Below are positions 2,302 to 4,498 of a DNA stretch of 26,286 nt, in pieces. The stretch is from a bacterium (GTDB taxonomy: Bacteria; BMS3Abin14). Every line of letters starts with the position of its first letter. The first letter of the stretch is position 1. The stretch lies in contig JARGFV010000029.1 in assembly GCA_029210545.1 (NCBI GenBank), forward strand, positions 1 to 26,286. Reading direction: 5' to 3'. Below the pieces are notes generated by a model. It ran no database searches, had not been told where the DNA came from, and saw nothing but the letters and a program-made list of their open reading frames with translations. The position numbers and the translations under genes were made by a program.

Positions 2302-2330
2302 TGTAATTTCAGAAAGTTACAAAAATGTAA
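2302..2330. promoter_or_regulatory. paired palindromic half-sites upstream of the sigma-54 promoter
   Basis: TGTAA (2302-2306), TTACA (2317-2321) and TGTAA (2326-2330) form two overlapping inverted repeats: TGTAA-N10-TTACA and TTACA-N4-TGTAA. They end 13 nt before the sigma-54 element. They could bind a dimeric regulator; enhancer sites usually lie further upstream, so a repressor is equally possible. Confidence 0.35.
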
Positions 2331-2343
2331 TAATCGCCGTTTT

Positions 2344-2360
2344 TTGGCATCGGGGTTGCA
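2344..2360 (+). promoter_or_regulatory. sigma-54 (RpoN) promoter
   Basis: TTGGCAT (2344-2350) and TTGCA (2356-2360) reproduce the -24/-12 element, with exactly 10 nt between the invariant GG (2346-2347) and GC (2358-2359). Compared with the consensus TGGCACG-N4-TTGCW only two less-conserved positions differ. The start should be near 2371, about 40 nt before the ribosome site of the 42-aa gene. Confidence 0.7.
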
Positions 2361-2423
2361 GATACAATACCGTAATCTGTTTGTATCGCATCGCACAGTC
2401 AGCAGAGTTCGGAGGATCATGAA

Positions 2424-2552
2424 ATGGAAACCAGGACAGCAGCCTTTGATCGGAAAAGGGAAATCCTCATCGGGATGGGCTGGTTGTTTGCAGCCGGCGG
2501 CTACTTTCTCGCGTACCATCTCTTCTGGGATGTCCTGACTTCCCTCAGGTGA
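2424..2552 (+). CDS. small membrane protein (42 aa) under sigma-54 control, hypothetical
   Basis: The ATG at 2424 has GGAGG at 2411-2415, 8 nt upstream. The 42-residue product has a charged N-terminus (METRTAAFDRKRE), one hydrophobic segment at about 14-35 containing GMGWLFAAGGYFLAY, and a short aromatic tail. A competing frame opening with the ATG at 2419 gives a sequence without structure and is rejected. The gene stands alone behind the RpoN-type promoter at 2344-2360, so expression probably depends on an activator ATPase responding to nitrogen, envelope stress or a two-component signal. No family is recognised. It resembles the 45-aa gene 500 nt upstream only in size and single-helix design. 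Confidence 0.55.
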   Translation: METRTAAFDRKREILIGMGWLFAAGGYFLAYHLFWDVLTSLR

Positions 2553-2974: not shown

Positions 2975-3003
2975 TTGACAATAGGGTACCTCGACCGTAT
3001 ATT
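2975..3003 (+). promoter_or_regulatory. main dcw promoter (Pmra), sigma-70
   Basis: TTGACA (2975-2980), exactly 17 nt, then TATATT (2998-3003). The predicted start near 3010 falls inside the MraZ boxes, so a bound repressor would cover it. A longer mraZ frame beginning at 2975 would start inside this -35 element and is therefore not used. Confidence 0.85.
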
Positions 3004-3033
3004 GTGGGGCGAAGTGGTAGAAAGTGGGGAAAG
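3004..3033 (+). promoter_or_regulatory. MraZ operator: three 10-nt direct repeats
   Basis: GTGGGGCGAA (3004-3013), GTGGTAGAAA (3014-3023) and GTGGGGAAAG (3024-3033) are in exact 10-nt register. MraZ of E. coli binds TGGGN repeats spaced by 5 nt, and mollicute MraZ binds AAAGTG-type boxes; these repeats match both descriptions. They lie between the -10 and the mraZ ATG, the expected autoregulatory site. Confidence 0.85.
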
Positions 3034-3040
3034 TCGGCAA

Positions 3041-3493
3041 ATGAGCCAGGCACCTTTCCGCGGTCGATTCCAGCATGCCCTGGATGACAAGGGACGCCTC
3101 AGCATCCCCTCCAGGTTCCGGGATATCCTTGTCCAGGAGCACGACGGCCGCCTTGTTGTGACCAATCTGCCCCATTGTCTGGTGGCCTACACGCCAGGCC
3201 AGTGGGAGGCCATCGAATCCAGGTCCGACAAGCTCTCCACTGTCAAAAGCAACGTCCAGAGCTTTCTCCGCTTCTTCTACTCCGGTGCCACCGAGTGCGA
3301 ACTGGATCGCCAGGGACGGATCCTCATCCCTCCCTCTCTCAGGGAAGCCGTCGGCCTCGATCGCCAGGTCGTGGTGGCCGGGATGCTGAACCGCCTCGAG
3401 ATCTGGAGCCAGTCCAGGTGGGACGACGAGATGAAGAAGGCGGTGGAGAACTTCGACAATATCTCGGACGAACTGGCCGATTTCGGCCTGTAG
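3041..3493 (+). CDS. mraZ: transcriptional regulator MraZ
   Basis: MraZ is a ring-forming DNA-binding protein of the AbrB/SpoVT fold that regulates the dcw operon through repeats in its own promoter. The product is 150 residues, close to the usual 140-155. Both halves of the duplicated fold are visible: FRGRFQHALDDKGRLSIPSR (about 6-25) and ATECELDRQGRILIPPSLRE (about 84-103), each with the family's D-x-K/Q-G-R-hydrophobic-x-I-P core. The start at 3041 gives the usual short N-terminus before FRG; GGGGA at 3026-3030 serves as ribosome site and overlaps the third MraZ box, so a bound repressor could also affect translation. It is the first gene of the cluster, 3 nt before rsmH. Confidence 0.95.
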   Translation: MSQAPFRGRFQHALDDKGRLSIPSRFRDILVQEHDGRLVVTNLPHCLVAYTPGQWEAIESRSDKLSTVKSNVQSFLRFFYSGATECELDRQGRILIPPSLREAVGLDRQVVVAGMLNRLEIWSQSRWDDEMKKAVENFDNISDELADFGL

Positions 3494-3496
3494 ATC

Positions 3497-4444
3497 GTGA
3501 CCGGAATCGAGGCAACAGGAAGCCACTTTCCGGTCCTGCTGGAGGAGATCCTCGAGGGTCTCAATATCCGTCAGGGCGGAGTGTATCTCGACGGCACGGT
3601 GGGCGCCGGCGGGCATGCTGATGCCCTCCTGTCCAGGTATTCCGGAACCCGCCTCATCGGTCTTGATCGGGATCCCGCCGCGCTGGAAGCAGCCGGCGCC
3701 CGACTTGCGGTTTACGGCGACCGCGTGATCCTGGTTCACCGGGATTTCCGGTTCCTTAGCGATGCCCTCGACGAGACGGGGACCGGGGTGGTGGACGGCA
3801 TCATCCTCGACCTCGGTGTGTCGTCCATGCAGCTGGATCAGGGCGACAGGGGGTTCTCTTTCACCCATGACGGCCCCCTTGACATGAGAATGGATCCCGG
3901 CAGCGGATCGCCGGCATCGGAACTGGTCAACGGGATGGATCCGCGAGATCTCGCCAATCTCCTTTTCCGCTACGGGGAAGAGAGGCGGAGCAGAGCCATT
4001 GCCGCGGCCATCGCCAGGGCGAGGGATGCCGGTCCCGTCGAGACGACGGCGCGCCTCGCGTCCATAGTCGCCGCCGTGCCGGGTATGGGGAGGATAAGGA
4101 ATATCCACCCTGCCACCCGCACCTTCCAGGCTCTGAGGATCGCGGTCAACGACGAGTTGGCCGCCGTCGAGGATGCAGTGCCGGCAGGAGTAGGGCGGTT
4201 GGCGCCGGGAGGGCGGATGGCCGTCATCAGTTTCCATTCTCTCGAGGACAGGATCGTCAAGAGAGGGTTTAAGGGACTGGAAAAGCCGTGCCGGTGTCCC
4301 AAGGAGATGCCCGAGTGCCGGTGCGGCCTTGTCAGCGCGGGGAAGGTGATCACCAGGCGCCCCATCGTCCCGACGGAGCGGGAGGCCAGGGAAAACCCCC
4401 GCAGCCGGAGCGCGAAGCTGAGAGTGTTCGAGAAAAAACAGTAG
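3497..4444 (+). CDS. rsmH: 16S rRNA (cytosine-1402-N4)-methyltransferase RsmH
   Basis: RsmH methylates N4 of C1402 in the decoding centre of 16S rRNA with S-adenosylmethionine, in the cytoplasm. The product is 315 residues, typical for the family. Seen: HFPVLLEEIL at 10-19, the SAM-binding loop DGTVGAGGHADALL at 32-45, LDRDP at 56-60, LDLGVSSMQLD at 104-114 with RGFSF and GPLDMRMD after it, ISFHSLEDRIVKR near 250, a short Cys-rich loop (CRCPKEMPECRCG), and the C-terminal PTEREARENPRSRSAKLR. The start is GTG, 3 nt after the mraZ stop. The last codon and the TAG stop are supplied by the first unit of a CAGTAGN heptamer tract. A 420-nt repeat-filled gap then separates it from ftsL. Confidence 0.95.
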   Translation: MTGIEATGSHFPVLLEEILEGLNIRQGGVYLDGTVGAGGHADALLSRYSGTRLIGLDRDPAALEAAGARLAVYGDRVILVHRDFRFLSDALDETGTGVVDGIILDLGVSSMQLDQGDRGFSFTHDGPLDMRMDPGSGSPASELVNGMDPRDLANLLFRYGEERRSRAIAAAIARARDAGPVETTARLASIVAAVPGMGRIRNIHPATRTFQALRIAVNDELAAVEDAVPAGVGRLAPGGRMAVISFHSLEDRIVKRGFKGLEKPCRCPKEMPECRCGLVSAGKVITRRPIVPTEREARENPRSRSAKLRVFEKKQ

Positions 4445-4469
4445 TCAGTAGCCAGTAGGCAGTAGCCAG
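4439..4469. repeat. CAGTAGN heptamer tract overlapping the rsmH stop
   Basis: Four perfect-register units (CAGTAGT, CAGTAGC, CAGTAGG, CAGTAGC) plus CAG. The first unit provides the final Gln codon and the TAG of rsmH. Confidence 0.9.
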
Positions 4470-4498
4470 AATAAAACCTGAAATTCGCGATTTAACGG

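Follow-up and report, generated by a model that had tools for sequence, protein, structure and literature searches.

The window analyzed here (26,286 nucleotides, positions 1 to 26,286 of contig JARGFV010000029.1 in assembly GCA_029210545.1, from a bacterium of the BMS3Abin14 lineage) contains the start of a division-and-cell-wall cluster. Its mraZ gene (positions 3041 to 3490) is followed on the 3′ side by rsmH-, ftsL-, ftsI-, and mur-like open reading frames (ORFs; these names were given by reading). mraZ has a candidate promoter of its own, TTGACA-17-TATATT at 2975 to 3003, which is conserved in the lineage. Between the −10 box of this promoter and the start codon lie GTGGGG-N4-GTGGTA-N4-GTGGGG repeats (3004 to 3031), which are conserved in all relatives seen and are probably MraZ boxes. 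Farther upstream, and all on the + strand, we found a candidate enhancer, a predicted sigma-54 promoter, an ORF of 42 codons, a C-rich tract, and a GC hairpin.

The comparison set comprised the 12 genomes of the phylum in the collection, all of a single family, with the window's own genome designated G000 (public records for three of the compared genomes are CP070682.1, CP070698.1, and JALHUC010000157.1). mraZ was located in 11 of the 12, and the DNA upstream of it was compared. DNA similarity searching alone matched relatives at the 3′ hairpin only; the promoter and the ORF have diverged too far for such a search and were therefore picked by position. Two contigs (G006 and G005) begin too near mraZ for the promoter to be judged, and the promoter and ORF region of G008 is a run of N. 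In G009 the region upstream of mraZ differs, and the unit has apparently been lost. No copy was found in the viral contigs searched.

The sigma-54 −24/−12 promoter predicted at 2344 to 2360 (TTGGCATCGGGGTTGCA) is well supported by its conservation upstream of mraZ and by pattern counts. As proposed in the initial annotation, it is near consensus with exact spacing (GG-N10-GC), and compared with TGGCACG-N4-TTGCW the only mismatch is in the two bases after TGGCA. Within the window, TTGGCATCGGGGTTGC (2344 to 2359) is the single match to TTGGCAYN5TTGC, a pattern found in 0 of 100 shuffles. Genome-wide there are seven sites of this type, versus one for the reversed control pattern; among the other six, one precedes a type IV pilin gene and another a TlpA-like gene. 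Transcription is predicted to start at ca. 2371, 12 nt past the −12 GC, in agreement with the earlier placement. Upstream of mraZ, a sigma-54 site is present in seven genomes from six genera (G000, G001, G002, G003, G004, G007, and G011). RpoN (PF04552) occurs in all 12 genomes of the lineage, and a PF00158 search of the window's own genome returned 16 near-full-length enhancer-binding ATPase domains.

Immediately before the promoter, TGTAA (2302 to 2306), TTACA (2317 to 2321), and TGTAA (2326 to 2330) can be read from the sequence as TGTAA-N10-TTACA-N4-TGTAA. These palindromes lie where the initial annotation had placed them, and TTACAAAAATGTAA (the TTACA-N4-TGTAA part) is unique in the window and absent from the shuffles, but among the relatives it is exact in G003 and G011 only. 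Given that another motif, TGACR-N5-TGTC, recurs lineage-wide farther upstream, the palindromes were dropped as the enhancer, and we regard them as a possible binding site for a second regulator (2302 to 2330).

The candidate enhancer (UAS) of the unit is a PilR-type site, TGACATTTTCTGACGCAATTTTTTC, at 2225 to 2249, a degenerate copy of TGACR-N5-TGTCA; such sites were assessed by a search for a position-shared motif and with a pilA matrix. The motif search recovered TGTGACGCAA-like sites near −111 in 5 of 10 upstream regions, a result as good as this being reached by 0 of 200 shuffle sets, and the enhancer position of the unit is about −110 to −140. Each of the eight pilA promoters of the lineage that were examined and had a recognizable sigma-54 site contains TGACR-N5-TGTCA; counted from the −24 GG, it stands at −113 to −125. 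A matrix built from the pilA sites alone (single p values floored at 1/501) gave p values of 0.002 to 0.004 for the mraZ-upstream promoters of G003, G002, G007, G001, and G004, and a combined p of about 3e-9 for the mraZ-upstream promoters of six genera. For the enhancer of G000 alone, where the site is degenerate, p was 0.06. As a group, four other sigma-54 sites of the same genome showed no match (0.25). The tlpA promoters were borderline (combined p, 0.04), and the TGTC/GACA density was raised in the mraZ-upstream promoters, not at tlpA; these values point only weakly to tlpA as a member of the same regulon. The pilA loci (L168 to L174 and L187) carry TGACR-N5-TGTCA as a clean candidate PilR enhancer in their own right.

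pilA is a classic target of PilR/sigma-54 control (PMC6058289; for the Geobacter RpoN regulon, see PMC2725144). Since the enhancer is common to the unit and to pilA, we infer that PilR is the likely activator. From the enhancer match with the pilus genes of the lineage, the unit probably belongs to the pilus regulon. What it shares with PilR/sigma-54 control of pilA is the sigma-54 site and a TGACR-N5-TGTC enhancer like that of the lineage's pilA; on the other hand, its product is neither a pilin nor the product of a pilus gene, and it lies upstream of mraZ.

The ORF (2424 to 2552, stop included) would be translated as METRTAAFDRKREILIGMGWLFAAGGYFLAYHLFWDVLTSLR, a 42-aa protein with one predicted membrane helix. 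Its ribosome-binding site, GGAGG at 2411 to 2415, can be read 8 nt before the ATG at 2424 and is as good as originally described. ORFs of 35 to 42 aa with a basic N terminus and one hydrophobic segment were found between promoter and hairpin in G000, G003, G011, G002, and G001 (four genera). The description as a one-helix membrane protein thus stands as far as position, topology, and a frame-specific signal are concerned, but the best 19-residue hydropathy of the window's own product is modest (1.32, versus 2.07 to 2.33 in its homologues). Between G000 and G003, 35 codons align without a gap from the start codon, with 16, 25, and 17 identities (of 35) at codon positions 1, 2, and 3. The BLOSUM score for this pair was 63 in frame, versus 34 and 7 in the shifted frames, and the amino acid score was the best among all frame pairs. 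These measures give a protein-level signal for the ORF between G000 and G003. Across distant genera the protein signal is weak (G000 versus G002 was not significant), and a Pfam search with the small proteins returned no family. The short message of the unit probably encodes a tiny membrane protein.

The best-conserved DNA, however, is at 2585 to 2645, outside the interval of 2302 to 2552 to which the unit had initially been assigned. That interval was too short, missing both this 3′ element and the pilA-type enhancer at 2225 to 2249. The element begins with a C-rich tract, UUUUACCCCCACCCCACCCCC (2585 to 2605), near-identical in six other genomes; fold predictions for the window and for G007 leave it unpaired. 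The genomes with a near-identical TTTTACCCCCACCCCACCCCC tract are G000, G003, G011, G008, G002, G007, and G001, whereas the versions in G006 and G004 are looser but still C-rich. In seven genomes for which the distance was measured, the C-rich element is located 284 to 534 bp upstream of the MraZ boxes. It is followed by a GC hairpin of 13 bp (2606 to 2635), a probable terminator. In the hairpin alignment, 96.7% of the pairs are standard and 5 of the 13 have changed on both sides; 0 of 500 shuffles, which do not remove the relatedness among the genomes, reached the covariation score, and every slid control was lower too. G-U pairs occur when the hairpin is read on the + strand, which is therefore likely to be the strand of the RNA.

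An RNA model of the element (R1) matched upstream of mraZ in 9 of the 12 genomes. G006 has one extra copy (L075, 1400 to 1560), located after an enhancer-binding-protein gene and the receiver-domain gene next to it. Outside the family, the model gave only two weak matches among 278 genomes, and these were not treated as relatives. An Rfam search yielded no credible family for the element; its one match, on a neighboring terminator, was at chance level and was discarded. The window's hairpin was not called in a terminator scan. Since the tail after the hairpin is clearly U-rich in G007 and G001 only, the hairpin may be a weak intrinsic terminator in the other genomes. Full complements of the C-rich tract were rare and scattered, several of them inside genes (e.g., those for P-loop ATPases) and none at conserved start sites; no conserved target emerged from them, and none is claimed. 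A tract that is unpaired and conserved in sequence could act in trans by base pairing to ribosome sites rich in G or, equally, by being bound by a protein.

The space between promoter and 3′ element is occupied differently among the relatives. In G007, a draft metagenome-assembled genome (MAG) and the only one with this form, the ORF is missing and the promoter leads directly into the 3′ element, with 24 nt between the −12 GC and CCCACCCCACCCCC (with the CCCACCCC core) and then the hairpin. In G004 a TlpA-like gene occupies the slot, while in G001 a sigma-54 tlpA adjoins the small-ORF unit, and both are present. Promoter and RNA are thus constant and the ORF is variable, as indicated by G007 and G004. 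Conservation of promoter plus ORF in sister genomes, which the initial annotation had proposed as a check, was borne out for the promoter in seven genomes and for the ORF in five, the latter being gone from G007 and replaced in G004. The initial annotation had also reasoned that a promoter retained with the frame lost would point to a small RNA. This is in part the situation here: G007 retains the promoter with no ORF, G004 has another gene in the slot, and conservation is far higher in the C-rich tract than in the protein. The ORF-less version in G007 speaks for an independent role of the RNA part, and the frame-specific signal speaks for a role of the protein in the genomes that have it. Overall, the unit seems to be more than a small-protein gene, namely an RNA element whose payload is an ORF.

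We consider it slightly better than an even chance that the locus produces one PilR/sigma-54 mRNA that encodes a small membrane protein and has a 3′-terminal C-rich regulatory RNA. The proposed single sigma-54 transcription unit would span about 2225 to 2645. PilR is the likeliest candidate for the enhancer-binding protein from the pilin regulon that would bind TGACR-N5-TGTC-type sites ca. 130 bp upstream and switch on sigma-54 RNA polymerase at 2344 to 2360. The first part of the transcript (about 275 nt in all) would be translated into a short protein crossing the membrane once, and the unpaired C-rich tract and the strong hairpin would follow. The 3′ element would be the constant part, with the ORF slot usually filled by a small membrane protein, empty in G007, and taken by the TlpA-like gene in G004. 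The element may itself be a C-rich regulatory RNA or give rise to one by processing, with pairing to G-rich sites (e.g., ribosome-binding sites) or binding by a protein as its mode of action, and the hairpin would end the transcript, keeping sigma-54 transcription out of mraZ.

The strongest competing explanation, which we rate as rather unlikely, is a plain sigma-54 small-protein gene whose C-rich tract and hairpin form a terminator insulating the essential division cluster, with the tract aiding termination (e.g., as a Rho loading site). The good ribosome site, an ORF topology kept in four genera, the U-rich tails of G007 and G001, and the fact that G006 and G004 keep the composition of the tract rather than its exact sequence are all in keeping with such a gene. 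Nevertheless, it would leave the tract better conserved than the protein and the tail, and G007 retains promoter and C-rich hairpin without any ORF; moreover, full-length copies at other genes are limited to the one in G006.

It appears improbable that the unit is a long leader for the division cluster, with occasional sigma-54 read-through into mraZ and the hairpin as an attenuator. Such a leader would have a precedent in UpsM, a small RNA (sRNA) upstream of mraZ in Rhodobacter sphaeroides that is made by attenuation from the only mraZ promoter (PMC5089854), and would account for an element just upstream of mraZ in nine genomes and for a hairpin without a strong U-tract. However, mraZ here has its own conserved, predicted TTGACA/TATATT-type promoter some 280 to 530 bp downstream, unlike the UpsM arrangement, and the DNA between the hairpin and this promoter is poorly conserved. 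That the ORF is a relic, the signal-peptide remnant of a former tlpA-like gene in the slot, with the RNA alone functional today, is very improbable: the TlpA-like protein in the G004 slot, the sigma-54 tlpA beside the unit in G001, the sigma-54 promoters of tlpA orthologues elsewhere, and the resemblance of the small proteins to N-terminal signal anchors would agree with it, but the gapless protein-level constraint from the start codon between G000 and G003 and the coexistence of tlpA and small ORF in G001 speak against it.

Under the preferred reading, the unit is probably a sigma-54 mRNA with a 3′ regulatory RNA, a kind for which there are partial parallels. Like UpsM, it is situated directly before the dcw cluster, includes a terminator-like hairpin from which a short RNA could result, and has a short ORF close by; the differences are the sigma-54 promoter, the separate predicted mraZ promoter, and the lack of an Rfam match. 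GlnZ, the 3′UTR sRNA of the sigma-54 (NtrC) glnA mRNA in enterobacteria (PMC9731577), resembles the candidate noncoding arm in forming the 3′ part of a sigma-54-driven mRNA and in ending in a hairpin, whereas the unit described here would be under a different activator, with a tract rich in C and an ORF that is tiny and can be replaced. In Rhodobacter and rhizobia, C-rich anti-Shine-Dalgarno sRNAs of the CCUCCUCCC "cuckoo" type carry CCUCCUCCC in loops. The comparison with these sRNAs serves as a lead only: here, too, an unpaired C-rich stretch lies beside a stable stem and might base-pair to ribosome sites rich in G, but it consists of ACCCCCACCCCACCCCC before a single hairpin rather than CCUCCUCCC in loops.

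More tentatively, and in our view possible rather than probable, this could be a lineage-wide dual-function locus, in which a C-rich regulatory RNA under PilR/sigma-54 control, combined with a coding slot of changeable content (small membrane protein, TlpA-like gene, or nothing) and fixed in place before the division cluster, links surface or pilus signaling to gene control elsewhere. If the unit is as proposed, the pilus regulon would gain a small-protein gene and an RNA that have no match in Pfam or Rfam, in a lineage represented here by MAGs only. Comparison of the natural variants (ORF present, replaced, or absent) would by itself allow the function of the RNA to be told apart from that of the protein. 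The constant position of the element upstream of mraZ makes a connection of pilus control with the division cluster a testable idea.

Several other features of the window and of its relatives were recorded. A second unannotated one-helix protein, MLEFITMLSVIAMVFCAATVFVALLAGGLLKVSRALKRKEAKETA, is encoded at 1909 to 2046 of the window, with a TTGACA/TATATT-like promoter near 1826 to 1854 and a terminator-like hairpin near 2072 to 2098; by eye it is conserved better than the 42-aa ORF, and copies occur at the same place in G003, G002, G007, and G001. Sigma-54 promoters also precede, at several places in the lineage (L096, L095, L098, L061, and L058), genes for TlpA-like proteins whose active-site motif has the first cysteine only (e.g., CSRS, CSTS, and CSFE). 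Finally, intergenic runs of degenerate short repeats, often of about seven bases (AGAGATA, AAACTCT, CAGTAGC, and CCAGTAC), are found at 2130 to 2165, 2655 to 2730, and 4440 to 4475 of the window and in L039 (1105 to 1190); they differ by place yet recur between genes across the lineage.
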